Part shown: one piece after another, positions 220 through 41,800 of the stretch | How the letters are laid out: each line of letters begins with the position of its first letter | Numbering within the stretch: the first letter of the stretch is position 1 | NCBI GenBank assembly: GCA_947462335.1 | Contig: OX381717.1 | Span: 41,645,523 to 41,709,522 of the forward strand | Length of the DNA stretch: 64,000 bases | From: Harmothoe impar | Lineage: Eukaryota > Annelida > Polychaeta > Phyllodocida > Polynoidae | Reading direction: 5' to 3' | The notes under the pieces: model-generated | The model's database searches: none | The model's input: only the letters and a program-made list of their open reading frames with translations | What the model was told of the DNA's origin: nothing | Position numbers and translations under genes: made by a program

Positions 220-3200
220 TCCTTCTCTAAGTTGAAGGACGCGTTGAGAGTGTGTGCAGCATTCCGTGGTACGTACCTCGACTACAGGGACAAGGCTGAA
301 GAGATTAACGAGAAAAACCAACTGGAACACTCCGAGAAGATGTGAGTTTACCATAGTGACTGGAGTTAAGATATCCTCCCGAAAAATATTAACCCCCTTA
401 CCCATTCAAAAATAAATAAACATGCCCTATACATTGCTAACTTATAATGTTTCAGCATAAGGGAAAAAAGTGGAGTGATCACACCTCGTTCCGTCCCGCT
501 TACAATCAAATTTTAATAGACCCAAATAATGTCTGAACATTGCATATTGAATAAATATCTTTGAATTGAATTTAATTCCCCAGGACCCAGCGACCACAGG
601 GGCCACATGTTCTCTTTGCGACAAAGTTATACGGCACCCACGCCTACCAGCCCAAGTACGGCATGAAGGCGGGGACGGCAGAGGAGGCGGAGGAGGCCCT
701 CAGGGAGGAGCAACTCTGGAGGGACTCGGCCTGGCCACCACGCAACGCACCCGCCTTCGACCTACTCAACGCTTTCATGGAAAGGTGAGATTCTTAACGC
801 TTTAACCCTTTAAGGATGGCGTGTCGCTAAAAGATGACATTTGTTGTCAAGATGCACCAATGCAGCCCCGGCAAGGTACTCGCAGGTGCTGCATTGGTGC
901 ATTATGCTGATCCTACGGGAGTGTCTCAATCCCGTACGGTCGGCATGATACTTGAATGCTTGAATGGAGCACTGGCAGGTTACTCGCCAGGGCTGCATTA
1001 ATGCATCATACCCTTGGTCATCATGATGCATGTCCTTAAAGGGTTAAGGGCTATATGAAACTTCAATGAAATATGCCCTTGGACCAATTGGTCGACATGA
1101 TGCCAACCTTGTCAGTAGACTCTCCAAGGGCTGCATTCAAGCCCATAAAGGGGTCGGTAGACTCCTGAAGTGTTGACATGATCCAAGAATGCAGCCGTAG
1201 TTACTATAAAGAAATAGACTCACCAGGGCTACATTCATGCATCATGCCGACCAAGGGCACAACACAATAAAGCATGGGTTTAGCTGCTAGTTCATCGTTG
1301 TCTAGTGTCTACATGTTGTCCTTGTTGAATATAAAACTGATAATCCATGTTAATTCCAGAATAAAGATATAATTGAACCAATTATTCAAAATAAGGCAAA
1401 TAACTCCTCACATTCACTCATGACAATACTTTATAAATATTACAGATGTAACGATGTATTGGAGCTCGTACAGACAACGCGTCACTTCCGCTTACTGTCC
1501 GATGCGGCCGAGGTGGGTGGAGCGGGCAGCGCTAGTCTGGACGCACTCGTTAAAGAAATACACCAGAAATACACGGCCGCCATGGAGCACTTCTTCAGTC
1601 AAGTCTCCAACGTCCTCAGCATTGATGGCACGCAGGCCTTTGAGAACGCCTTCTTTACGTTTAGAACAGTCGTCAAGGTGAGAGCCAATATTTTTGTGAA
1701 TTTTAACAATTTAACAAAAAACCCACCTTTTGTTCTGGCTGTAAATAGGCAGTGTAGTTGAGAAGAACATTACCGTAAATTCCTCTACGCGAGTCAGACT
1801 CAGCTTTCCTTTGTAACCAAGCATGCCCATACAGGGTGCGGATTATACAAATTTTTATAAGTATACTACAGTACCAAATTAGCAATTTTCAGACCCCCGC
1901 TGCGGCTATATAATTTTCTGAAGTTGGGGGTGCGACTTATACACAAGTTAGACTTATACAAGAGAATTCATGGTACATTAAAATTTAATTCTTTTTGATA
2001 TTTTTCCTTCAGGACCTAGAGCGTAAGTTGGCAGATGTCTTGCGGCAGAGTTTCCAACAGTGTCCGACCATTGGCTCACAACTCCGCCTTCTGGAAGTGT
2101 TCGAGGGAGTCAGTAGTCGCGAATTGGTCCAGGTAAGTTTGGACAAATGACTATCCACCTCTACTCCACTTTGCACAGTCACTGACTTTCGCAATTCATC
2201 ACCACTTTACCATTCCGTGAATGCAACCCCTTAAATTTCTAAGTACCAAACTTTATTTTGAGGGACTGGTAATTCTTGAACGCATGAGGGAGGGGGGATT
2301 TAAGGAGTTAAATTTATTAGTAGACAATTTGGTGTCGAAGAGAGGGCAAAAAAACCCAAAAAAACGCTAACATTGATGTCATGTATTACTACAGATGCAC
2401 CTTCGGGATAAAGACGAGGCGTTGGTCCAGGCATTTACAGATGAACTAATCAAGGTGAGGAGCATGTTCCACGCCTCGCAGAAAAAGCCGCCGCTTCACA
2501 AGAACATGCCGCCCCTCATCAGTCGCCTCCTGTGGATACACGCCCTCCGGGAGAGGGTCCAGGTATGTGCAATTTGTATGTAACCCTTTAAGGGCAGCAA
2601 AGTGCTTTATGTGCTGGCAAGTGGCGCCAGTGTGTGGCAAAGTGCATTCAGTAGTACCGTAAAACCTCGCGTATAAGCCTAACTCGCGTATAAGCCGCAC
2701 CCCGACTTTGGGCCAATCCTATAAGCCGCACCAGCGATCTGAATATCGTGGCTTTAGTACTGTACTATAGGAGCAAAAACTCGCGTATAAGCCGCATCTG
2801 GACCCTGGGCCGATCCTATAAGCCGCACCAGCGATCTGATTCGCGTACTAGCCGCGGCTTATACGCGAGGTTTTACGGTATATGGAAACCCAAAGTGGGG
2901 CCAGTGTGTGGCAGAGTGCAGTCAGTAGTATATGGAAAGTGGGAACAGTGTGTGGCAAAGTGCAGTCAGTAGTATATGGAAAGTGGGACCAGTGTGTGGC
3001 AAAGTGCAGTCAGTAGTATATGGAAAGTGGGGCCAGTGTGTGGCAAAGTGCAGTCAGTAGTATATGGAAAGTGGGACCAGTGTGTGGCAAAGTGCAGTCA
3101 GTAGTATATGGAAAGTGGGACCAGTGTGTGGCAAAGTGCAGTCAGTAGTATATGGAAAGTGGGACCAGTGTGTGGCAAAGTGCAGTCAGTAGTATATGGA

Positions 3201-6200
3201 AAGTGGGACCAGTGTGTGGCAAAGTGCAGTCAGTAGTATAAGGAAAGTGGGACTAGTGTGTGGCAAAGTGCAGTCAGTAGTATATGGAAAGTGGGACCAG
3301 TGTGTGGCAAAGTGCAGTCAGTAGTATATGGAAAGTGGGAACAGTGTGTGGCAAAGTGCAGTCAGTAGTATATGGAAAGTGGGACCAGTGTGTGGCAAAG
3401 TGCAGTCAGTAGTATATGGAAAGTGGGGCCAGTGTGTGGCAAAGTGCAGTCAGTAGTATATGGAAAGTGGGACCAGTGTGTGGCAAAGTGCAGTCAGTAG
3501 TATATGGAAAGTGGGACCAGTGTGTGGCAAAGTGCAGTCAGTAGTATATGGAAAGTGGGACCAGTGTGTGGCAAAGTGCAGTCAGTAGTATATGGAAAGT
3601 GGGACCAGTGTGTGGCAAAGTGCAGTCAGTAGTATAAGGAAAGTGGGACCAGTGTGTGGCAAAGTGCAGTCAGTAGTATATGGAAAGTGGGACCAGTGTG
3701 TGGCAAAGTGCAGTCAGTAGTATATGGAAAGTGGGACCAGTGTGTGGCAAAACTGCAGTCAGTATGACAGCGACTGGGTGTAAATGATCATTCCATATGT
3801 CGTGCAGCATACAGATTTTGCTGACCTGGAACTAAGCTATACCTTTTGTGACGCTTTCCCCTGTGTGGCCCTCCCTAACATGTCTTGTATATTACCCACC
3901 TTTCAGGGCCCTATGACCAAGATGAAGAAGGTGAACGCTAGCCTACTGGAGGGAGACTTAGGATGGCACCTGAGGGACGCATACGCCGAGGCCACCGCCG
4001 ACTTTGACAGGTAGCAACCGCTAATATTTTGTTAATACACCAAGAAATGCTCTTTTTATGTACATTGTATAACCATTTTTTTCCCAGTACCATACTATCA
4101 AAGCTCCAGTCATTTTAAAGACTCGGATCAGATACACTTTAAGCATATTTGACTCAGGGTAACTGAGTAATACTAAACGACCCAACCAAGGTTTAAGACG
4201 TTTTTGTTACATGGGAGAAGTGCTGTCATTCAATGTCCATGGCCCACAGCCATTAGATAAGACCATGGAGAGACAGGCAAGATCGGGGGACAAATGTTTC
4301 CTTCGAAAAGAAATGTGAAATGTCTTTCCTTCTGCATGAAATTGAGCTGCGATCTTCAGGTACTGATTTCTCTCTTTCGCATGAACTCTTAAGTACTGTT
4401 AAATTGCTACCCTCTAAATGAAAGTTACATAGGGTTCAATGTTAAACCAAAGATAGAAATCACATTTTCACCCACAGAGCCTCATATTTCTCTCTTTACA
4501 TACAGGAATGCCATCTACTACAGTAGAAATACCCTCATATACACAGAAAAAACCCATCTAGGTTCTTTAATTTAAATTTAAATGCAGGACACAAAAGCAA
4601 AGCAAAAGAACACGCCAGATCTCAACGTATGCAGAGCGAAATTGTACCACCCATATGTTCTCCGTTTATAGGCAGTATTCCACTGACGTCGGTCGGCCGA
4701 GATTCCGTCATCCGATAAAAGTCTACAATGTTAAACGTATGGGAATCTTGGCCGATTTACGTCAGTGGAATACTCCCTTATTGTTCAATCGACTCGCTTT
4801 TTGATAGGGACAAAAGGCGGTACATGCCCGCGGCCTGCAAGTGCAACAGTGGCCCACACCCACCTGCACACCCACACCCACCTGCTCTCTCACACCCACC
4901 TGCTCACCCACACCCACCTGCTGGCCTGTTATGGAATAACATACATGTATGACACATGACTTGAGGGTACTTTTTAACAAGGAATTCATTTCTGATGCCA
5001 GAATTGACCAATGAATGATTATGAGGGAGGATTATATCTAAGTACATGATAAGCTACAAATCCAGCTTACCCTGAGTCATCTGTGAGGTCACTCACACGC
5101 TCAATCTTTAATTTACTCAAATGCAGACATTCATACAGTGTTTTGTGTTCCTGCTTGAATAAAATGTTTAAAATTCTTATTCTAGATATGAGACAAGGAC
5201 AGTAACAGACTGGACGAGCCACGTCACAGCCGAGTTAACAGAGGGACTCAAACAGCCCCTTCTGGTAGGTGATTTGGGTTCTAGAAAGTTACTTTAAATA
5301 GGACATATTCACCCATGATGATGTATGATTCCTGATTAAATATTTTCGGATGAAATATTTGTCCATCTGATAAAGCAAGGATTGTGTGTTCTGGCTCATA
5401 CACTGATTCGCGTATAACCCACTAGAATAGCGGTTTAGCATGATTCGTGAAAGTACCTGAACTGACTCCATGGATATGACTCAAAATTGATGCATGGTTT
5501 TGTAACCAAATAAACTGCGGCATACCCTGATGAAGGTTTTGATAAGGTCAAAGCGTTGATCAATTTGAAAATGCACCTCATCATCATAAATGCCTGCTTC
5601 TTGAATTCAAGTACCTGACCCCCTCATAAAAATAAAAATGTAAAGTCTATTATAAAGATAAATTTTAAAAATAAAATTTTAAAAATAAGTTCCTTGCTTT
5701 TTGAATTCAAGTACCTGACCCCCTCACCTAAACAAGGTCTTGGAAATATCTTGATGAGAAAAATTATAAAATTAAGAATGTGAAGTCTATTTAAAAGATA
5801 GATTAAAAAAAAAAGATTTAGAAAATAAGTTCCTTTGCCCCCTGCAGGTGGCCGATGAGTATGAGGAGGAGGAGGACGTGAGGCCGCAGGTGGTGCACGT
5901 GAACCTGGACCCCAAACTGCTGCTACTCCTCAAGGAGATCCACTACATCAAACAGATGCCCTTCAGCATGAAGCTACCCAGTTAGTAGACTTATTTATAC
6001 ATTTAAAAAGTGTTTTTTTAATAATAGTCACCATATATTTTTTAATACATTTTCTTTTGACTTGAGAAAAAAAAGTTTAAAAGAAGAACCAGATAGGGCG
6101 TGCATTAACCCCATAGGGTCGGCATGATGCATGAATGCAGCCGTGGCGAATTACTCGCCAGGGCTGATTTCACGCATCATGAAGACGAAAGGGCATAGGT

Positions 6201-8871
6201 AAACTGCAGATCTCATTAAGGAGATCCACTACATCAAACAGATGCCCTTCAGCATGAAGCTACCCAGTTAGTAGACTTATGTATACATTTTCGTTTAGCT
6301 TGAGAATACATTTTCTTGAGAAAAAAACTTTTAAAATTTTAACCGAAGATCCATCTAGCGTGTATCATGATACATGAATGCAGCACTGGTGAGTTACTCG
6401 CCATGGCTTGATTTTCCCAGAGCCTACCCAAACAAACAAACCCATGAACAGTTTTGCATAAAAAGATAAATGTAAATACCATGTACAAACTTTTTGTCCA
6501 CAGGTCAGGCGCGAGAGTTGATACGTAACACAGACTCGGGCGAGCTGCGGGTGACAGCGTCACGCCTGGAGACGATCGTCTCCAAATACAACACCGTCAT
6601 GAAGACCATCACCGAGTTTGAACTGCCACTTTTTGAAAGAAAACTCACCAAAATTGATCATGTATGTAAACCACCATAATATAAACCTAGAAATATTTTT
6701 TGTGTAAATCTACCAAATCCCAAGTTCAAATCATGCATAATGACGACTGAGGGCATGGGGCTTTAAGGCATAATGCCGTCCTTAAAGGGTTGAGAGAATG
6801 ATTTTGTCACATTTTCCCACTGCAGCTCTTTGACCAAGGTCTAAACCAATACACATGGCGAACGGAAGAGAAGGCCGACTTCATTGAGACAGCGACTGCC
6901 CTGGTGTGCATCGACTTACATCGTAACCTGGACATTGTACAAACCAACTGCCATCAAGTGGCCGAGATAACGCTCTCCTGGTCCAAAGGCATTCTCGACG
7001 TGTTCTCGGCACGGAACGCAGGACAAAGTTACTCCATCGATGAACTCATTTCTATCCAGAGGTATGTTTGTTTATTCAATATTTTCAAAATTATTATTTT
7101 CTTTTTTTTTTCAAATTATTATTCTAGTCTTAAACCTTAAATCAAAACTGGTTCTCCAAAATGCGCAGATCTTTTTTATACTGGGTAAAATTCTCCTGCA
7201 TTGAGCTGGAAAGCTTTTTTTTTGTTATGGCGATCCTGTGAAAAATGTAAAAATAGTTGTCATACTTTTTTTTCATATTTAAAAATCCATTGCGTGATAC
7301 AAAAGGTTTATATTAATTAACGATGCTTACCCTATATATTTACAGCCAACTGAACGAGGACTTTGAAAATATTGTCACGCCCTCTGGAAATAAGATCCAT
7401 GCCCTTCTACAGGGCTCTTTTGAGGTAAGTTTGACACCACTTTATCCTTCCTCATGTGATTGCATGGTCTATGTTTCGGTACTTCAATTGATAAGTGAGA
7501 ATAGTCTGCTGCAGAATATAGAACAGCATCTATGAGACAAATGTGTGGACCGACCGCACCTCAACACAAAAAAAAAATAAAAAAATAGAACAGCATGACG
7601 ACTCTGGGGGTCATATTCATTTGTCATGATGCACCAATGCAGCACCAGCGCGTAACTCACCGACACTGCATTGGTGCATCAACCCCATAGTATTTGCATG
7701 ATGCATTCATGCAGCACAGGCAATTTAATCGCCAATTCTGCATTCATTCATCATGCCGATCCTATGGCTTTGATACCCTCCTGAGGTGCCGGCATAAAGC
7801 ACCAATGCAGCACCTCCGAGTCAGTTACCACGGCTGCATTCATGCATCATGCTAACTAAGTTTAAAGGGTTAGATAATATACAATCGCCTCTTTCTGTTC
7901 ACATACTACACAGATGAGGAGTTATCCCCCTAGCCCCTTAATAATGCACTATGCTGCCCTTAAAGGGTTAGATAAAATACCATCACCCCTACCTTCCCAA
8001 ACAGGTAAAGAGTGCATCCACCTGGTCCCTTGATAAAGAACTATGCTGTACTTAAAGGGTTAAATAACATTCCAACACCCCTTCCTACTCACACAAGTGA
8101 GGAGACCACCCCCCTGGCCAAATAATAAAGCATTATGCTGCATTGAAAGGGCTAAATAGGGTTAAATATTAAACATATCCTACCCCGTTCCTCCTGACGC
8201 AGGCTATCCAGATGAGCAGTGCGTCCCCGGCGTGGCAAGACTACGTAGACTACATGGACGCTATCGTACTGGACGGTCTCAAGCAGGCCTCCCTCACCAG
8301 CCTAAAGTCCATGCTCAACCAGATCGTCAAGGCCAACATTGCAGATGTAACCATTAATATGATTTTTATCTCATCATTTATAAACGTTTATCTCAGGATT
8401 TATTTTTATCTCAGCATCTACATTTATCTCAGCATTTATATTTATCTTGGCATTTATATTTGTCTCAGCATTTATCAGTATGTTTATCTCAGCATTTATA
8501 TTAAATCATAGATTTTAATTTCTCAGGTTGAAAAAAGTTAAATTCATTTATACCAGGTACTTATCTCAGATTTCAATTGAGTTTTTGTAAAGTCTCTTGG
8601 ATTACCCATAAAACACTGCAGACTTTATGGTAATATCTCATTGCATGGTGGCTTTCGAAATCGTTGACAGTTGATGAATGTATCATCTGCAAATTTTCAG
8701 GACGAGACCATTCCGATTCTACGTATCCGTCTGGAGTTGATGGAGAACCAGGTCGCCTTCCGACCCCCGCTTGACGAGAGCACCTCCAATAAGAGTGTTC
8801 AAGAGACCGTCTCAGACTGGCTCGACTCCTTCCTTGCCCGAGGACGCCTTGTCGACATGCTCGGTGGAAAG
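220..8871 (+). CDS. Dynein tail (DHC_N1-type), exons 1-13 of the window
   Basis: These thirteen exons encode about 650 residues of the N-terminal tail, which in dyneins dimerises and binds intermediate chains. Family-like stretches include FRGTYLDYRDKAEEI (exon 1), the exon 2/3 junction reading ERCNDVLELV, WIHALRERVQ (exon 5), LKQPLL followed by an acidic stretch (exons 7-8) and YTWRTEEKADFI (exon 10). Exon 8 ends with the weaker donor GTTAGT at 5981, and a copy of its 3' part lies downstream in the same intron. Exon 13 is the last before the 14.7 kb intron that holds the retroelement. Exons are GC-rich and introns AT-rich. The domain assignment rests on order and scattered motifs, since tails are poorly conserved. 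Confidence 0.82.
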
Positions 8872-11800
8872 GTATGTCATGACCATGGACTACTTTGATT
8901 AAAGAGGCCCTGACACCTTAATTCCTCACTACTGAAATATCATGTCAGGGCCTCTTTAATGTCCTAATTGGTTAGAAGTGGGTGAAGTCTTAAAATATAT
9001 CTCCTTTAAGCACTAAAACAAGACTTGAATAAACACCTTTCTTGTATAAGCACTGGGGTTAGCAGACCTCGAAAACTATAATGTATAGCACCAGGGCGCC
9101 TTACGTCACTCAAGTGTAACATTGCGCTAACATGTTTAAAGTACTAGGCTCTTTCTTTCTTATCTGTTGGAAGTTCATCTACGAGCATACGCTTTTGTCA
9201 TGTGACGCACGTGGCCTAACACGTGAGGCACGTGCAGGTCGGTATACTCCCTCTCAAAGGCTCTTATGTAAGTGTCACATGCTGCCACACGTGACACAAC
9301 CCCCTCAGGCCGTCACGGGCGCCCCAGAGCCGTCACAGGCCGCTGCACAAGCCTCAGGACCGTCACAGGCCGCTGCACAAGCCTCAGGTCCGTCACAGGC
9401 CGCTGCACACGGTCACATAGGGGCATAGTGTACCTTGGCCAACCACTGTCAACTGACACTAACACTCAAGATGCCATGCTGGTAGCCTGGCCCCCTTAAA
9501 TAGGGTCAGGTCCCAGCACTGGGCATCTCCATCCTCACTCTACACATGGACACCACTGAGCAAGGACCTCTCCACTGACTGAGAACAAGGCTATAGGCTA
9601 TGCCCTACTAGGCCCAACTATCAGACATGGTGTAGGACCCCCTTGGCTCTAGTCCATTACTAACCTCAGGGTTCTTAGGTATACTTACCAAGACCTATAC
9701 TATTGTGTGGATAGGTGTAACTGGGTGGAACCTACTTGTACTTACTGTACTGTTGCTGTCAACTTGTAATAAATACCAACTATACTACAAGACCTCAAGA
9801 CTTACTCAGATTCATACATATTAAAGGAGTCTCCCAACTAAGGGGATTCCTTGTATGACAAAGATCCCACAAGCTGGCAGCACAGACTACCAAGACTCAC
9901 CTCCGCAGCAAAGGACCAGCTACCCCTGGATCTCTACCCAGCAGGAGGAGGAGACCCAGCTCCAAGGAGTCATCCAGGAGCTCCACTCCAACACCCTCAG
10001 CTTCACCACACCACACCACTCAAGAGAGTGACTTCCAAGGCAAGCTTCACCTGGACACCCTAGCTGCCCTGGACAGTATCCAGGACACACAGAGTGACTT
10101 GTTCTCAAACGGTCAGCATACCCCAGGATCAGGTATGAGTGACGATGAGACAGTACCCCCAGGCCAGGCAGCCAAAGAGGAGGCTGAGGCACTTCTACTC
10201 ATAGCCCAGAATGTAGAAACTCATGTGGATAAGACACTTAGGCCTGAACTAACAGCCCTACACACCACACATGAGGAAAGCACCAGCCGAGCCTTAAGGA
10301 AGGCCAAAGAGGAACAAGAGAAGGAATTAATATTACTCAGACAAGCCAACCAGGCACTGAAGAACTCTATGGAGACCCAAAAAGCTGAAGCCGCTCAAGC
10401 ACTACTTGATATGCAAGCTCATCTACAAGTGACAATGAAAAACCAGCTAGCTGAGGCCCTAGCCTCACTCAAGTCAGGTGCACCCAATACCCAAGGAGTG
10501 AACCTGACTAACACTGACACCTCCTCAGCACTCCTAGATGCCTTGAAAGAGGAAAGAGTTGCAAGGGAGGCATCTTTCAGTGGGTTAAGGGACCAGCTAA
10601 AACGAGACAAAGAGGAAAAATACTGTGATATTCTACAGCCAGAAAAATTTTCACAGTCCTCTCTCACACAATCCGCCAGGAGGCACTATGAACAATACTT
10701 TGATTCCAGATATGGGTACCATCCCAGTAACAGAATCAAGTATTTCTCAAACTACCTAGATGGTAAGGCAAAAATTTGGTACAAAGCCTATAGGACAGCC
10801 CATCCAACAGCAGACTATGAAGAAATGAAGGCAGCTTTCCTGAAATACTTCAAGAAGGAGGACGACAGATTTGATGCTAAGGCATTGAGGAAGCAAAATC
10901 CAAAAGAATCTGTATCAGACTATGCCATGGCCTTACAAAAGATGGCCACAGCTCACAACAAGTCTGAGGAGAGAACAAGGGAAGCCCTCCTACATGGTCT
11001 AAGGGACGACATCAGTGCAGTAGTCATCCACAGGGAAGCAACTACATGGGATAAAATACTTGAAGTTGCAGAGGAGTATGAGAACCAACAAACAGTCTCC
11101 ACTGGTAACATTAAAGACGAGATAAAAGCAGAATTAGGCTCAGAACTACAGGAAACAATAGAATCCATGCAGGCACAACTGAAGTCTGTGACACATGTAA
11201 ACTCTATGCTTGTAAAGCAAACAAAATCACAGAAAAATGGAAACCCCTCAAAGAAAGCCAAATCAGACCCAAAGACAGTTCAAATGGATCACTCATCAGA
11301 GGATGAGGACCAAAGCCTAAACCTCATGTCAAATGAACATGTGAGGAGGCAAGAACAAAGGGCACTGAAGGATCAAGGTAAACCCAACAACAGCCAACAA
11401 AGGAACTCTGGAAATAACAGAGGAGGCTACCGAGGCAAAAACTTTGACCCAAACTTCAGAAATAGCAACAGAGGAGGACAACGAGGCAGAGGTGGATACA
11501 GCCAAAATAACAGCCAAGATCACCAAAGCAACAGTCAGGACACCAGCCGTAGAGATAACAGCAGAAGTCGTGACAACAGCAGACACCGTGATAGTAGCAG
11601 AAATCGCGACTACAATCGCCGTGATAACAGCAGAGACCGTGATTACCACCGTCGCGACCAAAGCAGAGATCGTGACTACAACAGAGGTCGGGATCAAAAC
11701 CGTCGTGACTACAGCAATAGTCGTGACAGACAGCATGACTACAACCGCAGTCGTGACAACAGCAGAGGTCGAGACAGCTACAATGGCTACAGATCCAACA

Positions 11801-14800
11801 CACAAGGCTACAACCCCCAACAGCAGCCCCAACAGCCACCTCAAGCTATCCAGCCTGACGTGCTTCAACAGATCAAGCAGCTACTAGGATCTTCAAACTC
11901 GGGAAACTAGAGACCCACAGCGCCGCTGGGCCAGTGCGTTGTGAGCCTCTCCAACCCCCTATCAAGATCCAAGATCAACAACACCTAGGACAACCAAAGA
12001 CAATTGCTAGTATAGCAGAGACAATCCCCCAGTTACATACTGGGAAATCAAGCCGACCATCAGTGATTCATATCACACCTCAACAAGATGCATCGCAAAA
12101 GGAAATGGGTGAGAGTACCAAGATTTCTGTTGAACTTCTTAAAAATGGCTGTTTAAATGCAAGATTCTATGAACACACTGAAATACCTTGTTTAGTTGAC
12201 ACCGGTGCCACTATCACCTGTGTCAGGGATACTTTTCTTAGGGAAATTCAGAAATCTCGAGATGTAGAAATCAAAAAGAGAAAGTTCAATGTACACTTAG
12301 CAGACGGATCCATATGCCATGTAACACAAGCAGCAGTATTGAAATTCAAAATTCATGGTACCAGATTCGAATTCCCATTCTCAATTATTCCAAATCTCAC
12401 AAAGCCAGTTGTCCTAGGCACAGATTTCTTAAAAGCAACACGATCACAGATCGAATTCAATGTAGACCCAGAGCTACAAGTCAAGCCGGTCCGAGCTGTT
12501 AGGGAGGCTACAATCCTTCCTTTCACAGAACTAGCAGTTCTAGGACAAGTCACATCCCTCAAATGTTTAGAAGGATGTGTAGGCACATTAGACAATTTGC
12601 AGAGGAACAACAGAGTTCCATACCTAGTTCAAAAGGGAGTAGTAACACCCTCAGAAATGAACAGGCACCCAATCATACTGCTCAATACAAGCCACCGACC
12701 ATACAAGGTGAGGAAGGGTGATATAATAGCCCTATTCACAGAGGTAGATCCCTCTGAGTTACATCAACCAGATACTGACATCCCTACTGAGGAACCCACA
12801 CTACAAGTGCTAGACACTGAAGAGAATTGTAGTGACACAGAGTCAGACTGTGCCTCAGTATATGCAGATCCAGATACAAACCGTGGAGATGACACTGATG
12901 ATGAATTGGCCACAATTCACAGTGAGGCTCATGACATTATGCCAGACATAATGGAAAATGTGCCACCCAAATGTGTACTAACAGATATTGGACAAGAGAG
13001 ACTCCAAAAGTTACTCCACAAGTATCAAGATGTATTTGTAGGTAAAGACAATGACATAGGTACAACCCACCTATATACACATTCAATTCACATCAAACCA
13101 GATGCAGTACCATGTCACTACCTACCATACAGGCAGACGCCTGAGAAGCAAGCTAAGATGGGAGAAGTCTGTGAAGACCTAGTCAGACAGGGCATCCTCA
13201 GAGAATGTGCAGAGGGACCCTGGGCATCCAGATCATTTTTAGTACAGAAAGCATCTGGAGGCCAACGTCTAGTCACAGACCTACGCCACGTCAATGCTAA
13301 TATGATAAACCAAGCTTTATCAACGCCACGTGCAGACGACACACTACACATGATAGGGTCACTCAAACCTACTGTTTTCAGTAAACTAGATGCGCAACAA
13401 GGGTTTTTCCAAATTCCCATAAGAAGGGAGGATCAACACAAAACTGCTTTCATAGCAAATGACAAAAAATATGTCTACCAAAAGATGCCGATGGGTTTGG
13501 CTACCGCGCCGGCAGGATTTTGCCATCTAGTAACTCTAATTCTCAACAAACTGAAATACAAATGTGCCCTACCATACTTAGATGACATTCTAGTCCTATC
13601 ACCAGATGTAGAACGACATTTTTCAGACCTTGAAGATGTCTTCAAAAGCCTGAGAATTGGGAAACTCAAGCTAAAGAAATCAAAATGTGAATACTTCACA
13701 GATAGGATAGATTTTCTAGGAATGCGTGTCACACCAGATGGTTTACAACCATCCCCAGAAAAGGTGGAAAGTGTCAAAACTTTTCCCACCCCAAAATCTG
13801 TGAAACAAGTCAGATCATTCACAGGACTATGCCAATACTTCAAAAAGTTCATCAAAGACTATGCCAATATTGCTAGGCCACTGTACGACCTACAAACAAA
13901 CCTAAAGGTTTTCAAATGGAATGAAGAGGCAGACAATGCTTTCAAAACATTGAAACATGCACTCTGTACCCATGCACTATTGAGATACCCAGACTATGAC
14001 AAAGAATTCAGTCTAGCAACAGATGCTTCAAATGTGAGCCTAGGAGCCGTTCTATCACAACGCAGTAGTGAAGGAGTACTGAGACCAGTAGCCTTCGCAG
14101 GTAGAACACTATCAAAGCATGAAAGAAACTACAACACAACAGAAAGAGAGCTACTAGGTGTAGTATATGGGATACTACACTTTAGGCACTACTTAGAAAG
14201 TAGGCACTTTCAGTTGTACACAGATCATGCAGCTCTAATACCACTCCTCACAAACACAGGTTTGACCCACAGGTGGGCCAGATGGGCACTGGATATCCAA
14301 CAATTTGCATTCACAATACAACATGTAAAAGGAGATGACAACATTCCTCCAGATGTGATGTCAAGAAGAGAATATCCAGATGCACCACCAATGACCAACC
14401 CCCCACCACCTCCAAGAAGGAAAAGGGCAGCCACCAGAACCAAATTCTCTAAAATCCAAACCAAGATACCATTCAACAGAGATGACCCACCAAAATCAAT
14501 TGACAGACCAAAACCAGTGATCAGAGGTATCTTAAAAGAGACCACCCATTATGTGTTCTGTCATTGTGAAAGGGAATACTGTCAAGAGTATCCAGAAAAC
14601 TGTTTCACCCCGGTTGAGACCAACAGGATTGCACAGATGGTGAAAGCCACACCCCGTGAACCACCACACAGTGCATCAGAAAATCAGTTGGAAGAAAAAC
14701 TGCATAAAATTGCTTCAATCACCAAGGTAGTCAGATTTGCAGAAGAACAGCTGGATATGGAGGAAGAACAGGACAGAGACATTTGTGTTGTCACCACACG

Positions 14801-17800
14801 TTCAAAAGCAAAACGGTCGGTTGCAGAGGATACAAGGTCTAATGACCACCCTCAGCAATTAGGCCTAAAAGTCAAAAAGAACAAAGTGTCAACCAAATCC
14901 TCTTTCCCTACTAAATCCCCCATTTCAACACCCAGCACACCCACAGCCAATTTGCAGAAGCACTCAGACAGAGCAGGTACTGCACAGAAGGCTCACAAAA
15001 CCAAATCTGACCCCCATCCCAAAAGAACAAAGGCCGCCTCCACCAGCACAAACAGAGGAGCAGCCAGTTCAAAGGAGCAGACAGCCAACACAGACATAGC
15101 AGTTGAACAACCAAAGAAACAGACAAAGACCAGACCTGCACCAAAATCTCCTGAAACAATCCAGGCAGAGAAAGATAAAGAAAGGCTGGCACAGCATAAA
15201 ATGGAATTAGACCAGATGTTAGACCAAATCCCAGACAGTTCAATCAACTCCACACTGTTGAAAGAAGAACAAAGGAAGGACACTGGACTAATACCCATTA
15301 TAGACTACCTAGAGAAAGGTGACCTACCTGTAAAAAGCACTGAAGCAACAAAGATTAGGAATAATGCTCAGCACTACCTACTCCTAGACAACATTCTAGT
15401 ACACATATCCCCTACATCATGGAGAAAAACAGACACAGTACCACTACAAGTTGTAGTCCCAAAAACTTGGGTTGAAAACATACTGCAACACTTCCATGAC
15501 TCACCAATGGCAGGTCATGTAGGTACTTCAAAAATGATGTCTTCTCTCATACCTAGGGTATATTGGAAATCTATGATGGCTGATGTCAATCAGTATGTGT
15601 CAACATGTGACACTTGCCTAAAAGCAAAAAGGGCAGTGCACACCCACAAAACACCAATGACTGTAAGGGACTATATGCCAACCCCCATGAAGCACCTAAA
15701 CTTAGATGCTGTGGGACCACTCCCAGAAACAGCCAGGAAAAACAAACACATACAAGTTTGCATAGATTATTCAACTAGATATGTCATAGCATATGCCACA
15801 AAGGATCTCACAGCAGAAACCACACAACGTGAGTTCTACAAGAACGTCATATGTCAGCAAGGTGTACCAACTTCAGTTCAAACTGACAATGGCACCTGCT
15901 ACACAGGCAGCAATTTTAAGAAACTGATGAACACCCAGAAGATTAGACACGACCTGTCAAGTCCATACAGACCACAATCAAATGGATTAGTGGAAAGATT
16001 CAATGCCAGTATAGGAACAGCATTAAGGACTTTCTGTTCTCAGAATCAGAAAACATGGGACCTGTATATAGAATCAATTACATTTGCATTGAACAAAACA
16101 GAGTCCCAGACAACAGGTTACACACCATTCTTCCTACTTCATGGCAGAAACCCTCAAACCATTGTAGAAACTGCCCTAAACATAGAGGAAGAAATCAAAA
16201 CAGTAGCTGAGCATGTATCTGGAATGATACTGTCTCAAGATGAGTCTAGAAGAAAGGCAATAGACAGAGTCAAAAAGCTACAACAAGGAAGGAAGTCAAG
16301 ATATGACAAAAAGCTTACACCACAAGCTATACTTCCACTAGATATTGTATATATCAACATTCCCAGAATTCTGTTGACCACAGATTCAAAGAAGCTTCAA
16401 CCCCTATTCATGGGACCATATGTTGTTGCAGAAAGACCAACTCCAACCAGCGCAAGGTTGAAGAACCTATCAAATAACCTACTAGTCCCCAGACCAGTAC
16501 ATATTGATAGGCTCAAAAAGGTCACAACACTGAGGAAAAATGAGTTTGCACACAGACTCATTCCCCACACCTCAAAGTTTATCCACAGGATAACAAGGGA
16601 TAAAACCCAAATCACACTCACCAAAGAGTCAGTTGGTCTAAACCAAATAGTACCCAGACCAGCCCACCACAAGGTGAAAAGAAACTCCAGGCAAGGGAGA
16701 ATATCTAAGTAGATTACTTTTATATATTGACATGATCATATGGAATATCTATACCCACAGACTATGAATAATAGTCAAATAAGTATATAAACATTCTATA
16801 TGAAGGAAATTGATTTTCCAACAACTGTCCAAATCATAAATGATAAGTAGGGATTTCATATCAGCATAGGATATGAACCCACACAAAGGACAGAAAAGAC
16901 AATATACACTATATAAGTTACAAAAACAATGTGCACACAAAGTAGAATCAAAGGACAGATTACTACAGGGTTGAAGTCTGAAACCCAAAAAGGCTACACA
17001 CAAAAGCCAAAAGAGACTACCTAAAGGGATTAGCAACCCAAGCTTGAAGAAACCACAATTATCATACTTTGCATCAAAGGCTAGCATCCTTGAAAGAATG
17101 CACAATGAAAATGTTTGAACCTAAATCCTGTAAAGTACATGAAACAGAGCGTGCTATGCCAAGAGACTACTGTCTAGACACACCCTTACCCTTCAAAGGA
17201 CCCACACACCTGCCAGGGCATTCAAACCCCCACAGATGCAGGTAGTCCACACTAATTACCCCAGACATAATTACCCCAGTCAGACAAGCCAATGCTGGTG
17301 GCACACAGCTGAGCCACCAGGGAAACAAAGCCAGGCCCTCAATGGATGAGGGTAGGGTGGGCTACATAAGAGGCCCTGACTCCATAGCCAACTCACCAGT
17401 TCTACTCCTACAGCAGTCAGGCACACACCAGCTGGTCCTAGCCATACCAGTTCTCCTATAGCAGGAGGGACTCTGTCAGAAAGCAGACCACACCCACTCT
17501 ACAATATCATACCCAGTTACTACAATCTTGGGAAAGGACTCTAGCACAGATTGGACATTAAGCCAACACTAGCTTGATCATGGAAAAAGGTACAGTTCAA
17601 ACACTACATTGATTATTATATTACTATTGGGACCAACCAGGATTTCTGCTCTCAAAACTATGTACACAGAGGCAGTGCCAAGTGGATACTTCACATAAGC
17701 AAAAAGGATAGCTCACAAAATCAGCAAACCAATTTAAACCTAAGTATATTGCAAAAACACTAGTAGAAGTCTTACTAAGACATAGAATATATTTTATATT

Positions 17801-20800
17801 TCAGGCATGCTAAAGCCAATCCTACTACTAGTGATGATGGCCACTTCTCAAGCCATCACATATGTGCCCACCGTTAGACAGAACGTTGGAGCCATATATG
17901 AGCCATTACCTGAACCATTGGTCAATGGGCACGATACCACAACCATGATATTGGCAATACCATACCATATACCTGCTCCACCAGAGACCGAAACCAAAAT
18001 ACTGGACCAGGTTATGGCACCGACATTTCCTACCCTGCATGACGACAGTTCTACCAGTCAGATATTACAGCAAGCAAGGGAACTAGATCTGTTAATAGAC
18101 ATAACAGACAAGGAAATTAACTCTACCTTAGCATCCATCCATTTGTTCCTATCAAATCCAATTAACAGTCAAGGAAGGTACAGAAGAGCACCACTTGGGT
18201 TCCTAGCCCGACTCTTCAGAGGAGCAATAGGTCTTGCCACACTAGATGACGTCAAAGAGGTCATGGACCAGATAAAGAACATAGACGGCATTCTAGAAGC
18301 TTTTTCTAAGCAAGACAAAGAAGCAGCTATATTAATTGATAAGGTCACACAACGCCAAGACAAATTTGTCAAGGCATATGTTAAGGATAAAAGTATGCTA
18401 GACCAAACCATGAACACTCTAGGCCAAAATATGAATATATGGGCTCAAAATATGACCGCATCTCTGAACACTTATGCAAATCACGAGCACACACAAAGAA
18501 GGAAGATCCAAATTTTAACTGATGCACTCACCATTATTGTAGCAAGAATGAACTATCTGCAGGCATTGCAGCGCACCACATCAGCACTCAGGATGCTATC
18601 AGCAGGCATTATGACTGCTGACATAGTACCACCAGCTGAACTAACGGAGCATCTGAATGATCTGGACATGACACTCAGAATACACTCACCAGGATCAAAG
18701 GTCGCCATAACTGACCTTGACTACTATTATTCCCAAAGAATGATATCCTACACCTATTCGGAACGGCACATATACATCCACCTGGATATCATTGTAGCAT
18801 CCACCGTCTCCACCTTCAGAGTATTTCAACTGGTAACTACACCAGTACCAATCAACACCAAGGAGACACCTACAAAGGGAGTAACCCAATTAATTACTGA
18901 TGTCAAATTCTTGGCTATCTCTGAAGATGGTTCACTATTTATTGAACTGACAAATACAGATATGCTAACCTGTCCAGGAACTAAGATCAAAATTTGTACC
19001 AAAACTAGCCCGAGAATCCATAGACATGTACCTACATGCACAGTAGCAATTTATTTGAACCAAGCTCAGCAAGTCAAGGAAATGTGCCAATTTACTATCT
19101 CACCCTTGAAGAGACCTATCTCACACGCTGTAGCCATTTCACAAGATGAATATCTTGTGACCACAAATTCTCCCACCTACACAGTTACGTGTCACGGGAA
19201 ACCAGCTACTACTCACAAAGCACCATCACACTCAATCATAGGTGTACCATGCCTATGTACAGTGAATATAGATCACTATTCACTACCAAATTCTAGGTTG
19301 CCATGCAACACTACAATTTCATTTCACTATGCTTTGGAGACTATAAACCTACCTTTTCTCGCGGCTCTAAATGAAATCAAAGAAATTGGACCAGACTCCA
19401 AGGCAAATTTGCCACCTTTTCCAAAGGTCAACCTATCCAGGACACTGGATATGTTAAGGAAATCAAGTAATATTGATGAATCAACATTACTAGACCTAAA
19501 CCCATTCGCAAAAACCCTGCTAGATGATGCCTCCAGCCTGGCTAAGCCACTGGAAAATAGACTAATAGAGTCCTATCTATACAAATTTGCACGGCATCCA
19601 GCAGCATCTATCATACCAATGATACTTTCGGTTATAGCTACAATTTTGGCCACATACACCCTATTCAAAATGCACAGAGGATCCACACTACTAGCTTATA
19701 TGCCAACTGCAAAAGCATATAGATTTGTCACAGAGAAGCCTATGGAAAAAGCCTTCGAAACCCTATACAAGAAGGACACCACCACGGCACCAATAGAACA
19801 GGGCCCCACCCCTATTCTAACCATCCATGAGACCCATACTCTTATCATAGCCATACTATTCACACTCACCATTTACTCAGCCTACAGGCTGACCAAATAT
19901 CTAAAGAGTATGGCAACCAAGCACTGTGGAAAGGGAAAAGTCACCAAGAGGACAAATCCCACAGTAGTACTAAAAGTCTACAAAGGAGACACCAACTTCT
20001 CCTTCCCCTTGCGTCCAGTGCCACATGAGTTTGATACAATTATAAAAGCTTCAGCCCCAACATACAGAGATATGATTATAAAAATGTACCCTCTCCCAAG
20101 ACTAGTATTTGAATGGAATGGACCAGTAGTAATTACTACTAAGAAAGGAGAGACCGCATATTTACTGCCAGAAACTATCAATCTACCATGGCGTGCCAGG
20201 TTCAGCATAATACCAGCGCTCAGGGAACCTAACCTAGATTTTGCCATGTTACTACAAAATGACATTTCACCCCAGCCCGTTACCATGGATACCCATGAGT
20301 CAAAGCTGGAAAACATCATAATTGACGACCAAAGAGAGAGCACCAATACATTCAAAAATGTACTCACCATACTCACCCAACCACCTACAGCTGTAACTAG
20401 TGAGAAAGTACATGGGGAAGAATAAACACAATTATACAGGATTGAGATTGACCAAAACTTTTGTGAAAAGTTGGTTGGCCCTGAAAAGGACCGTTTATTT
20501 TGACATTTATAAATGCCACCCACTAGTTGTTATAGTCCCCCCATCCCAAGGCCTCCCAGGACTCGGCCAACTCGGCAGCGGCAGGAGATCCAATCCACGT
20601 ATCATCACTGAAGAGCCACTCGTTCTCCTCCCTCCACTGGACAAAACATGCCTCCAAAGTAGACAAAGCATGCTCAGCGCTGTCTGCAGCATCACCTGTC
20701 ACCGTGTAAGCACATAGGCCGACAGCCAATAGGAAGTCCCAGATGACCCCATCATTTCTGGTGAAAAGCAGTCGCGGGTCATATCCATCCAGATCACGTA

Positions 20801-23800
20801 GGGCCTGAGCCAACAGCTCCAGAGATGCCGCCCTGCGCATGGAAATCCCGCCAGCACCAAGGAAGTACCAGCCGTGATGACGGCACACCAAAACATCACC
20901 TAAACTGGCAATGTCGCGCCGGACTTTATGCAACCACCGCGTCCTTACTGAGTCATATCGACTCAGAATACTCCTAAAAGGAGTCCCAGGAGTCAGCCCC
21001 TCCAAGGTGTTTTGATCACCCAACCACAGGTCCAAGGCCTGCATGTCACCCTGCAGCCAGGCCTCAGGGAGATATGCAAGTACCTCAGGTACAGCCTCCA
21101 ACTCGTCCTCCAAAATTGCCATATGCGCCATACTGTGTTATCTCAAGGGTACTCAAGGTATAAGTGATCCTACTGTGGTCTACACAGCCTTTATAACCCC
21201 TCCCCACCCCCAAATGACACTGTTCACCCTCTGAAGTGATCCCCTCACTTCAGGTGACAAGTCCATGAGAAGGCACATGATCTGCTCACCAAAAGGTGTC
21301 AACCACCGGTGTCACCGCGGCACACGATGCATTTTGCGCCGCATGACACAATAGCCTCAAGGTGCCACACAAAAATCTGCTCAAGGTGCAAAATTTTCAA
21401 ACTCTCACAATCCCAAGGTCAAAGCAAGGTCTCAGTGTGTGTCAGTAGTATCAGGGAATCAATTTTAAGGTATCCCAAAATGAAACAGCCAATTTTTGAA
21501 AAATTGAAGTTTTACAAAAACAATTGCGTACTCTTAACCATGTCAAACTTGCTCAAACATGCATTTATATGTATGAAATTGTATTATTACAATCTAAATT
21601 GCTAACCAAACATGTTTGTATATAACACTGTATTTTACACTGTATACCTTTGTATTATGTAAGACTATTTACAGAAAAACATGAAGCAAAAAAGGAGATA
21701 GTCCGCTGACTAACCCTAGGATACTACACAAAAGACTTAAATCTCACAGCAGCGGCCCACTGCAAAGACATTTCTGATCAAAGTGTAGATCCACAAGTTG
21801 CAAATTGCCAACACCAAGAATCTTGTAAGATTCAACTATCATTGCAGAAACAAGATACCAAGTCATTTTTATGACATTATGAACACTTACCCTCCACCGG
21901 ATAAGGACAAAATATCTGCATAAAAAGGACTGTACTTGTACATACAAACTTACAAATTTAAGTAATGCAAAATGTCAGATGACACAATTATGAACACTTA
22001 TCCGCCACCGGACAAGGACATAAGTATGCATAAAATGTACATTACTGATTGCTATATCACGCAAATCCATAGATAAGCGCTATCTAGAAATAAGAAAACA
22101 AACTTCAAGCCGGTTGGCCTACTTTTATATAAAAGTGGCCTTGGTTTTTTTGGTATCAAACAAAAAGTTTGTAAAAGATTATCATAAGATTTTGCATAAT
22201 TTGCATTATACTCTGTATATTTGTATTCACATGTGAACATTGATATATCAAAATCCACTCAGTTCCACAAAGCACCTATTCACCAAAGACAGCCTATTAC
22301 TTGATAACACATTTTTCATCATGTTTTAGAATTAAGACAAAGATGTACCATGCTGTGTATATAATTCAAACAATGATTTGAAAAGTGTCAGATAAAGACA
22401 CAATGTATTACTACACTGTATAACATGTGATTAAGAAAGTACCAAATTGGTACAAAGAAGGTTTACATACCTTATAGTTAAGATTACACTGTATATAATG
22501 TAGATGACTAGCCAAGCACAAAACCAAAATTCTCCCCAGACCTTTGGTATTTACATACTCTCACATCATCTATATTACAAAAAAAGTGTACTTCACTACA
22601 ACAAACAAAAGAACAAAAAAAAAAAAAAAAAAAAAAGGGTAAATCCTATTTGCCACCAAAAATTGTGGATAAAATTCCAAAATTCACCCCAAATTTTTAG
22701 ATGGAATGACAACTGACGGAGAGTTGTCCTTTTTCCCGAGGGGGAGGCACCTGTCATGTGACGCACGTGGCCTAACACGTGAGGCACGTGCAGGTCGGTA
22801 TACTCCCTCTCAAAGGCTCTTATGTAAGTGTCACATGCTGCCACACGTGACACAACCCCCTCAGGCCGTCACGGGCGCCCCAGAGCCGTCACAGGCCGCT
22901 GCACAAGCCTCAGGACCGTCACAGGCCGCTGCACAAGCCTCAGGTCCGTCACAGGCCGCTGCACACGGTCACATAGGGGCATAGTGTACCTTGGCCAACC
23001 ACTGTCAACTGACACTAACACTCAAGATGCCATGCTGGTAGCCTGGCCCCCTTAAATAGGGTCAGGTCCCAGCACTGGGCATCTCCATCCTCACTCTACA
23101 CATGGACACCACTGAGCAAGGACCTCTCCACTGACTGAGAACAAGGCTATAGGCTATGCCCTACTAGGCCCAACTATCAGACATGGTGTAGGACCCCCTT
23201 GGCTCTAGTCCATTACTAACCTCAGGGTTCCTAGGTATACTTACCAAGACCTATACTATTGTGTGGATAGGTGTAACTGGGTGGAACCTACTTGTACTTA
23301 CTGTACTGTTGCTGTCAACTTGTAATAAATACCAACTATACTACAAGACCTCAAGACTTACTCAGATTCATACATTTTAAAGGAGTCTCCCAACTAAGGG
23401 GATTCCTTGTATGACACTTTATTCTAATTTTCCAAAAGTTGATATTAGACTGTACAAGGCATGGATTATAAAATATATGAGGGTAGAGATTTAATGTTTA
23501 TTTTTGGAATATTCTGTGACCATTAATGTTACTGAAAGAGTCATTACTATGTATTTTACAGGGTTCGTACACCGACTACATCGCAGTAGATGAGGAGGTT
23601 GGACAACTGGTGGAACACGTTCAGCGACTCGTCAAAGACAACGGAGAGGAATGCACGGTAGGTCCTAAATATTTAACCCTTATGGACGGCATTTAGCCCT
23701 TAATGAACGGAATAGCGCTGCCATGTAGTACATCATGCTGACGTATGATGCATTAAAGCACCATGTTGCTCTTAAAGGGTTACTTATACTTATGCAGCAT

Positions 23801-38800: not shown

Positions 38801-41800
38801 TGGTAACTGGAACAAGAAAGAAACTGGAATTTACTGATTTTTTTGGGGCATAGCTAGTTTATAGTCATAACACTGTTCAGGAAAAAGGCCAAGTCCTTTT
38901 GTATGTACTACATTAAATATATCTAATCTTACAATATATAACATTGCTCTAACTATTACACCATTACAGTGGCGTCCCAACCAGACCGCAGTCAGAGTGT
39001 CGCTGAGTCCAATTCACAGGCGCAAGCAAATAGTGCCTCCAAGCAGGAGTCGACCAACGACAATGAAAAACAGACCATCCCCGAGGAAGGAGAGGGCTCG
39101 GTGGTCAACGGAGATCCCGAGACTGCCTGTAAGTTCTTAATTCTCAGGATGAAAGTCTTTCATTGATTTCAAGTTCTTTTTTATATTACAAAGACCTTTA
39201 CTAAACATTATTCAGGGGCCTCAATTTCAACATTTAAAAAAAATTTCACTTCAAGATATGTATAGAATTCTCACTATTAAATTCATCTCTAAAAGACCAA
39301 GAGCACTGCCCAAACTACTATCCAAAAAAAACTAAAGACAAATCAAAACACCATTTTCCACTTTTTATCTTAACTCTTCACAGCCCTGAGTATCCCACCA
39401 GCAGACACAATGACAATGAACCTCATGGCCATGCCGATGGTCAGCAAGGCCGAGACGGCCGAAGAAGGGAATGACGACGCGGACCAATCCAACCTACGTC
39501 TCCTCCTCTTCCCGAGTCAGATCCGCAAGATCTCCATGCTCATCGCACTCCTTGCCCACCAAAGGGAGATGCTGATGCGGCTCAAAGAAATCCAAGATGG
39601 CGGCGAGGAGGAAGAAGGAGCTGCAGTACCAATCAGCTCCTGCTTCGACTGGGCTTGTCAGCTGCACTATACGCTGGATAAAGAAACGCGCACTGTAAAC
39701 ATAGGGGTGGGTATTTAAAAAAAAAATTTATAAATTTTTTTATTCAATTGTATCGCTAGTACAAGTGTTTGGCCAATTAGGGTTTTTTCAACAGCTCTCT
39801 GATGAATCTAATCTATTATGGAAAACGACTATTTAGATAATGCTAACATATGTTGGCATTTGCAAAGTTTCTGTTTGATAATTGATTATAAAATACATAT
39901 TTCTATTTATTTCTGTTAAAAAGGCCTTTACTTTGACACAAATATAGGTGCTCTAATGTGTGTGTTGCACTGTAAAATGAAGGATAGAAGAGTGAATGAT
40001 TATTGACATGTGTGTACTATTGTGAAATTTCCAATTTGATATGATAAGACATGTTTTTTTTCGCCCACATTTCCTCATAATTATTTCAATATAATTCAGA
40101 ATTCAAAATATATATGTAGGTAAGCTATAACTTTGTTTTGTGTTGCAGTGCCTGGGTAGTGAGTTTGAGTATGGCTTTGAGTACATTGGGTCGTCCCCAC
40201 GCGAGGTGATCACTCCACTCACGGAGCGAGCGTTCCTCGCCTTGACTCAGGCTATCAAGTCACACAACGGAGGTCTGTGTATGGGACCAGCGGTAAGTTA
40301 AATGAATTCATTTTATTAAAATGTTTAGAAAATAAATAATCATGATGATAAAGGTTGCGTAAATTGTTTCGTCTATCATATTGTGACTGGGGGCGCCACA
40401 CCCTCACTAGAATTTGTGTTTAATTGGGGGGAAAAATGAAAAACAAAAGACTGTATTTAACATACTTTAGATGGGTTATTCCATTGCTTAAGAATATAGA
40501 TAAGAAAATACAATGACTTAGTAAGATGTAGATATTTATTAATATATCTGAGATAAACAGACAGATAAAGCATAAAAGTGTAATCTGGTAGAACACTGAC
40601 TTTGATGAGGTTTTAGACTTTTTTAAATGATAGAAATTAAAGCTGACGCCTTCCTTTCCTTTCAGGGTACTTCTCGTCTCGGTACCGTTCAGGAGCTGGG
40701 TCGAGCTCTCGGCAAACCACTCTACACTTTCAACTGTACCAAGTCACTGGACAGCTACGCACTACACGATGTGTTCAAAGGGTTCGCAGCCACCGGTGAG
40801 TGAACTGACCGTTTAGATGGCCCTATAGGTTTTGTATAGGTTTATATAGGGAGCCCAACCACGTTTTCCTATGCCAATGATACCAGAGTAACATGAAGCC
40901 TATAGCTGTCCTGCCATCATTAACCCTTTAAGAACAGCATAAGGCGTTAATGCATCATGCCCTTGGTTGTCATGATGCATGAATGCAGCCCTGGTGAGTA
41001 GATCACAAGGGCTGCATTCAAGCATCATGCCGACCATAGAGGGTTAAGATACTTACTGCATTGGTGCATGATGATGACAAATCATATCTTTTAGCGACAT
41101 GCCGTCCTTAAATAAAGGGTTAAAAATTAATAAATAAAATCCATGTTTTTCCCCGACAGGTTCGTGGATCTGCCTGAACAACATTAACAATATGCAGCCT
41201 GAGGTGCTGAGTGTGTGCGCCCAGCTGGTCACAGCCGTGTTCGATGCCATGCGGGCCGGCAAGGCCAACGCACACTTCCCATCTGAGGAGGTTCAATTAA
41301 CACCCGGCGGAGCATGCTTCGCTGTCATCGACTCTGGTATCAAGGTGAGTTTAGTTTTTATTGACTCTGGATGGGGTCTGTGAGACGGTTTGGAAAATTG
41401 CTTCCACCCATTTTAAAGTTCAATTTTGCACTTTGGCCCACACTGACCCCACTTTCGATGAATTACTGACTGCACTTTGCCACACACTGGTCCCAATTTC
41501 CATATACTACTGACTGCACTTTGCCACACACTGGCCCCACTTTCCATATACTACTAACTGCACTTTGCCACACACTGGTCCCACTTTCCATATACTACTG
41601 ACTGCACTTTGCCACACACCGGCCCCACTTTCCATATACTACTGACTGCACTTTGCCACACACCGGCCCCACTTTCCATATACTACTGACTGCACTTTGC
41701 CATACACTGGTCCCACTTTCCATATACTACTGACTGCACTTTACCACACACTAGTCCCACTTTCCATATACTAATGACTGTACTTTGCCACACACTAGTC

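Follow-up and report, generated by a model that had tools for sequence, protein, structure and literature searches.

An antisense open reading frame, conserved between env and the 3' LTR of an env-bearing Ty3/gypsy provirus of Harmothoe impar, is probably an accessory gene

We analysed a stretch of 64,000 nucleotides from the annelid Harmothoe impar (contig OX381717.1, positions 41,645,523 to 41,709,522), hereafter the window. It contains a complete provirus whose two long terminal repeats (LTRs; 9196-9860 and 22752-23416) are 99.7% identical (2 mismatches in 665 positions) and end in TG..CA. CTTT stands on the outer side of both, as a 4-bp target site duplication (TSD). By their Pfam coordinates the pol domains follow the Ty3/gypsy order protease-reverse transcriptase (RT)-RNase H-integrase and the element is, judged from its sequence, an env-bearing Ty3/gypsy (errantivirus-like) provirus. 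Between env and the 3' LTR, its minus strand carries an open reading frame (ORF) of 202 codons, which is the subject of this report. The features of the element are as follows.

9196..9860, plus strand: 5' LTR (TGTCATG...TATGACA), identical to 22752-23416 apart from the mismatches above and flanked by CTTT
10135..11910, plus strand: gag, with a Retrotrans_gag match (E 1.8e-8); the frame is open from 10099 and its first ATG is at 10135
11934..16712, plus strand: pol (protease, RT, RNase H, integrase), with Pfam gag-asp_proteas, RVT_1, RT_RNaseH and rve in this order
17795..17804, plus strand: putative splice-acceptor-like sequence TATATTTCAG, directly before the env ATG, read from the sequence
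17807..20425, plus strand: env, 872 aa, with an RRAP cleavage-like site and a fusion-peptide-like segment recognised by eye
20494..20499, minus strand: AATAAA of the antisense gene, read from the sequence
20523..21131, minus strand: antisense ORF (aORF) for an acidic, Trp-rich protein of 202 aa, from ORF reading, copy comparison and codon-level selection
21160..21170, minus strand: region in which the antisense transcript is predicted to start, 25-31 bases downstream of the TATA box
21190..21195, minus strand: TATA box (TATAAA), read from the sequence
21197..21211, minus strand: G-rich box GGGGGTGGGGAGGGG upstream of the TATA box, read from the sequence
22752..23416, plus strand: 3' LTR, identified by its identity to the 5' LTR and its CTTT flank

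The antisense frame opens with an ATG at 21131 and runs through 202 codons to a TAG stop at 20523-20525. An in-frame TAA two codons upstream makes this ATG the frame's first, and its context ACAGTATGG, with A at -3 and G at +4, is strong. On the same strand, TATAAA (21195-21190) is found one base past a G-rich run of 15 bases (complement of 21197-21211), both standing 60-80 bases upstream of the ATG, and AATAAA (20499-20494) lies 23 bases beyond the stop. An earlier note on this DNA had described a TATA box, a leader, a strong ATG, 202 codons and a stop in this order, and they do lie on the minus strand where it placed them; the acidic, Trp-rich character that it gave to the product is equally borne out (pI 4.4, 10 Trp). 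Minus-strand TATAAA occurs at five other places in the element, none of them inside the LTRs (this count covers TATA-containing starts only). Transcription is predicted to start at about 21165 and, from these coordinates, the predicted antisense mRNA would extend to about 20480, overlapping the sense 3' untranslated region (UTR) and not the env coding region. When the env-to-LTR interval was simulated 2000 times (second-order composition, two segments, six frames), an ATG-initiated ORF of at least 202 codons was present in 4 of the simulated intervals.

The host genome (1.51 Gb, 736 contigs) was searched for related copies. All 150 scored matches ranked by the ORF (501 candidates) were full length without a stop, a result biased by the ranking on the ORF itself. 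For this reason copies were drawn with the noncoding flank 21300-22500 as query; of its 476 candidates 40 were scored, and these yielded 30 loci including the window copy. A first selection estimate (shared variants 4 nonsynonymous and 21 synonymous, single-copy variants 18 and 18) was replaced by this flank-ranked sample, since its copies had been ranked by the ORF protein. The frame is intact, with no indel, in 30 of 30 flank-ranked copies, and 22 of them have one protein sequence in common. Variants present in at least two copies were 1 nonsynonymous and 7 synonymous, and single-copy variants 12 and 14; in the 3' part of env (621 bases) of the same copies, the corresponding counts were 2 and 16 for shared variants and 10 and 15 for single-copy ones. 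The ratios of the two genes do not differ (Fisher test), and the constraint on the antisense ORF is similar to that on env. Without the window copy, the minus frame shows 25 variants (9 nonsynonymous, 16 synonymous) and a ratio of nonsynonymous to synonymous rates (dN/dS) of 0.17 (P 1.3e-5). Four of the five other frames, used as controls, show no deficit (P 0.87 or more), and the plus frame that has its wobble positions in common with the antisense frame gives a dN/dS of 0.22 (P 2e-4), yet contains 7 stops in the window copy. These data show that the minus-strand protein is under codon-level purifying selection.

The start of the frame is conserved together with its codons. All 29 other copies ranked by the flank have an identical ATG context and an identical stop, and TATAAA is present in 23 (TATAAT in 4, 2 not displayed). 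Of 30 other copies ranked by the ORF, 28 have the identical ATG context; the TATA box reads TATAAA in 24, TATAGA in 2 and is otherwise changed in 1 (3 not displayed), while the 3' hexamer reads AATAAA in 21 and AATATA in 4 (3 not displayed).

The protein database contains a 98% relative of the antisense protein, P0001, and another, P0002, which aligns gap-free with the full 202 residues at 77% identity. P0002 is separated from P0001 by 45 changes, and in a neutral simulation begun with the window ORF only 1 of 2000 runs was as conservative. These changes also leave long blocks untouched (P 0.001 for the six longest blocks, but no significance for the longest one by itself, P 0.12). Since the protein database favours intact ORFs, the comparison of P0001 and P0002 alone is not decisive. 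This genome yielded no P0002-type ORF closer than the window family, the best of the 150 scored matches (504 candidates) reaching 79%, and searches of viral contigs with the antisense ORF and of prokaryote genomes with P0002 found no relatives.

The composition of the antisense ORF region departs from that of the whole element, with a GC content of 0.548 vs 0.436, as the earlier note had seen, and a CpG observed/expected ratio of 0.55 vs 0.28. At fourfold sites, the plus-strand G share is 0.24 in the antisense ORF vs 0.07-0.09 in gag, pol and env (Fisher P 1e-4 for ORF vs env, with counts rebuilt from rounded shares). A second env family in this genome is about 50% identical to P0012, an env relative that is itself about 35% identical to the window env; 49 of its 50 scored envs (1464 candidates) are stop-free. 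In one copy of this second family, the 1.4 kb behind env contained no minus-strand ORF longer than 76 aa, and the best tblastn match of the antisense protein had an E value of 3.3. A late gain of the ORF in the window lineage would be the simpler reading and a plausible one, a single copy being thin evidence. The captured gene proposed in the earlier note is in keeping with this composition and with the lack of the ORF in that copy, but no donor gene was found in the protein database, the viral contigs or the prokaryote genomes searched.

The age of the element was estimated from 10 copies picked from the ORF-ranked lists, 9 of which yielded an LTR pair. Over the part comparable to the window LTR, 6 of the 9 pairs had zero mismatches and the others 1/698, 5/682 and 4/427: the element family was amplified very recently. 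When 30 ORF-ranked copies were compared with the window along the 3.6 kb surrounding the ORF, 28 showed an identity of 97.9-98.9% and the 2 others about 94%. Identity to the window LTR goes down to 84% over the matching part among the LTR-pair copies, and in 6 of the 9 other copies the 5' part of the LTR (the first 125-333 positions) lies outside the match to the window LTR, which suggests exchange of LTR regulatory sequence among copies. A 4-bp repeat was found in 2 of the 3 other copies having whole-length LTR matches and is missing from the third. The LTR at 9196-9860 contains four CACGTG E-boxes (LTR positions 13, 25, 34 and 93).

The window env itself gave no Pfam match to Baculo_F (PF12259). 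Four env relatives were scanned with this family: P0010 (57% identity) matches above the curated cutoff (E 6e-6), P0011 (37%) matches below it, and P0008 and P0012 gave no match at E 0.01. A 'fusion protein' of the PDB (9w4d) also matched the window env (E 0.0027). Through P0010 and this PDB match, the window env appears related to Baculo_F proteins. No relatives of env were found among viral contigs, nor any P0010-type env closer than the window family in this genome (best 57% among 52 scored of 1438 candidates). By eye, the env ATG is preceded by TTTTATATTTCAG|GC (17771-17812), and the env mRNA is probably spliced, judging from the sequence before the ATG. Another minus-strand ATG ORF, of 112 aa and Cys- and Leu-rich, lies between pol and env (16749-17087).

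Outside the provirus, plus-strand ORFs within 8212-8898 and at 49805-50263 resemble axonemal dynein heavy-chain exons; the ORF 8212-8508 weakly matches such chains (E 0.046 and 0.25, unrelated hits being similar), and the others were recognised by eye. The provirus may therefore sit in a large intron of such an animal gene. At 62584-64000 a 67-bp unit, which reads like an exon end followed by a GTGAGT splice donor, is repeated about 21 times. One 44-bp minisatellite occurs at both 2892-3764 and 41427-41978, in opposite orientation, 38 kb apart and about 94% alike.

The best overall explanation, to which we give a probability of about 0.62, is that the antisense ORF is an accessory gene of a recently amplified env-bearing element, with its own antisense promoter and a trans-acting protein product. 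The intact frame, the codon-level purifying selection and the conserved start context and position are observed directly, and we are highly confident that the frame is a real protein-coding gene. The TATA box and G-rich box make a promoter of its own quite probable. According to this explanation, the integrated provirus would transcribe the gene on the minus strand from this TATA and G-box promoter, independently of the LTR; the short mRNA, of about 0.7 kb (~21165 to ~20480) and clear of the env coding region, would encode the 202-aa protein. Antisense placement could give the gene a promoter and a poly(A) site of its own while the genomic RNA stays full length, which may be the reason for the layout. 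The protein would then most likely act in trans, either regulating the expression of the element or counteracting a host factor, in the way that the antisense products of human T-cell leukaemia virus type 1 (HTLV-1) do and those of plant Gypsy elements have been proposed to. By analogy, regulation of the element and antagonism of the host appear evenly balanced.

Several observations weigh against this explanation. Searches of Pfam, PHROG and PDB with the antisense protein found no family, as the earlier note had anticipated (best E 0.58 in a PDB list reaching E 10), and its AlphaFold models are unusable (mean predicted local distance difference test score, pLDDT, 39 and 37). Five further relatives, P0003-P0007, are fragments of 66-165 aa that resemble decayed copies. 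The selection test is based on 25 variants, which are few; the copies sampled are very young, belong to one family and favour the closest relatives of the window copy. The promoter stretch is as variable as the ORF or more (0.070 vs 0.056 variable sites), and TATAAT replaces TATAAA in the four flank-ranked copies mentioned above. At the other end of the gene, the hexamer is AATATA in 27 of the 29 other flank-ranked copies and AATAAA in 2 of 29. The 3'-end signal thus varies, and of the ordered gene signals described in the earlier note, the start context, the stop and the ORF hold, whereas the poly(A) part is weaker than was thought. Finally, we infer every step of antisense expression from DNA sequence alone, promoter use and transcript ends included, as well as the protein fold and the trans-acting role.

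The frame could be a chance opening in a GC-rich stretch and no gene at all, in line with the empty family and fold searches, the shorter, decayed-looking relatives and the 4 of 2000 simulated intervals with an ORF of this length. The earlier note had expected stops or a dN/dS near 1 in related elements if this were so; copies picked regardless of the ORF gave instead a dN/dS of 0.17 (P 1.3e-5) and an intact frame in all 30, and P0002 is full length at 77% identity, which leaves a chance frame extremely improbable. By eye only, LFTRNDGVIWDFLLAVGLCA and the Trp-rich C-terminal part recall the BH1 and BH2 motifs of a Bcl-2-like cell-death inhibitor. None of 8 family members matched the Bcl-2 model at E 10 (one gave a weak DUF1285 match, E 0.084), no PDB profile matched, the mean pLDDT of the models is 37-39, and the Gly-Arg of BH1 is absent from the antisense protein. 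With no Pfam or PDB match and unusable fold models, this very improbable resemblance was dropped.

Alternatively, the antisense RNA and not the protein could be the product, pairing with the sense 3' UTR and damping the element through double-stranded RNA or small RNAs. By its coordinates the predicted mRNA would be complementary to the 3' part of the sense transcripts, and noncoding antisense RNAs are reported for Drosophila micropia (PMC7264820). The minus-frame codons are nevertheless under selection while synonymous sites vary, and this pure-RNA reading is weakened and unlikely because RNA alone would not keep 202 codons. The same data argue against the antisense silencer of env put forward in the earlier note, since selection acts on the protein and the predicted mRNA would end at about 20480 without reaching the env stop at 20425; a noncoding influence on the sense 3' UTR is possible. 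A gene captured from the host or a DNA virus and kept as cargo, acting on host cell survival or immunity and not on the element, would account for the divergent GC, CpG and fourfold-site G of the ORF and for its absence behind env in the second-family copy. That composition could instead reflect minus-strand coding demands, and the donor is absent from the databases searched; in this genome, where the best 150 matches were scored, a distant single-copy host gene would escape. We consider such cargo rather unlikely, though a good deal less so than an RNA product, and retain an accessory gene acting in trans as the preferred explanation.

If this explanation is true, the element provides a testable system for the role of an antisense gene in silencing, latency or host antagonism. 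Its expression can be checked in host RNA data, should these exist, because at least 150 near-identical ORF copies are present in one genome. Errantiviruses as a family have gag-pol-env, a baculovirus-F-related env, TG..CA LTRs and a 4-bp TSD. The window element has gag-pol-env, TG..CA LTRs and a 4-bp TSD in common with the insect errantiviruses (gypsy, ZAM and their kin). Its env, which has no Baculo_F match of its own, may be baculovirus-F-related as well, through the relative P0010 and the PDB match. To our knowledge insect errantiviruses contain no antisense protein gene, and the window element would add one. A baculovirus origin of the errantivirus env is reported in PMC12440569.

Like HBZ of HTLV-1 and the other deltaretrovirus antisense genes, the window ORF encodes a protein in antisense and lies towards the 3' end of a provirus with env (PMC10186651). 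As described there, HBZ is nuclear and independent of Tax, being expressed without the sense transactivator from a promoter with Sp1 sites (PMC10186651). In contrast, HBZ starts in the 3' LTR, whereas the window TATA box is internal, about 1.5 kb before the 3' LTR; HBZ is a bZIP protein of Retroviridae, whereas the window element belongs to Metaviridae and no Pfam match to bZIP, or to TRP28 (PF04195), was found in the antisense protein or 8 family members. The main text of this review of retroviral antisense transcription names neither Metaviridae nor gypsy (PMC10186651).

Closest in layout are the plant antisense ORFs, namely Grande gene23, RIRE2 and Retand ORF4/TRP28. According to PMC7264820 and PMC11963269, they too belong to the Gypsy superfamily, lie antisense behind the last sense gene and ahead of the 3' LTR, and are found in most copies of their element. 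The feature of the plant-type aORF-3R that is found here is a conserved antisense ORF in this position. The hosts differ, the sense ORFs of Retand are without env features in PMC11963269, and the proteins are unlike, the TRP28 domain of Retand being unmatched in the window protein. For the antisense proteins of Retand, DNA binding is predicted (PMC11963269), and maize Grande gene23 has its own upstream promoter and a nuclear product (PMC7264820). An antisense gene with its own promoter thus has a precedent in Gypsy elements. The earlier note knew of none in an env-bearing Metaviridae element, and the top-ranked open-licence literature likewise yielded none in env-bearing animal Metaviridae; the antisense genes that it did yield belong to Retroviridae and to Gypsy elements of plants and fungi. 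Deltaretrovirus antisense accessory genes have known functions, unlike those of plant and fungal Gypsy elements. The window gene, if real, suggests that this layout arose more than once. More tentatively, and at somewhat less than even odds, a recently active env-bearing lineage of animal Metaviridae may have become independently 'complex' by gaining a foreign gene in antisense, with its own promoter; the product would regulate the element independently of the LTR or counteract a host factor, as a counterpart of HBZ that evolved outside Retroviridae. While the layout is already known from plant Gypsy elements and HTLV, the protein of the window gene matches no known family.

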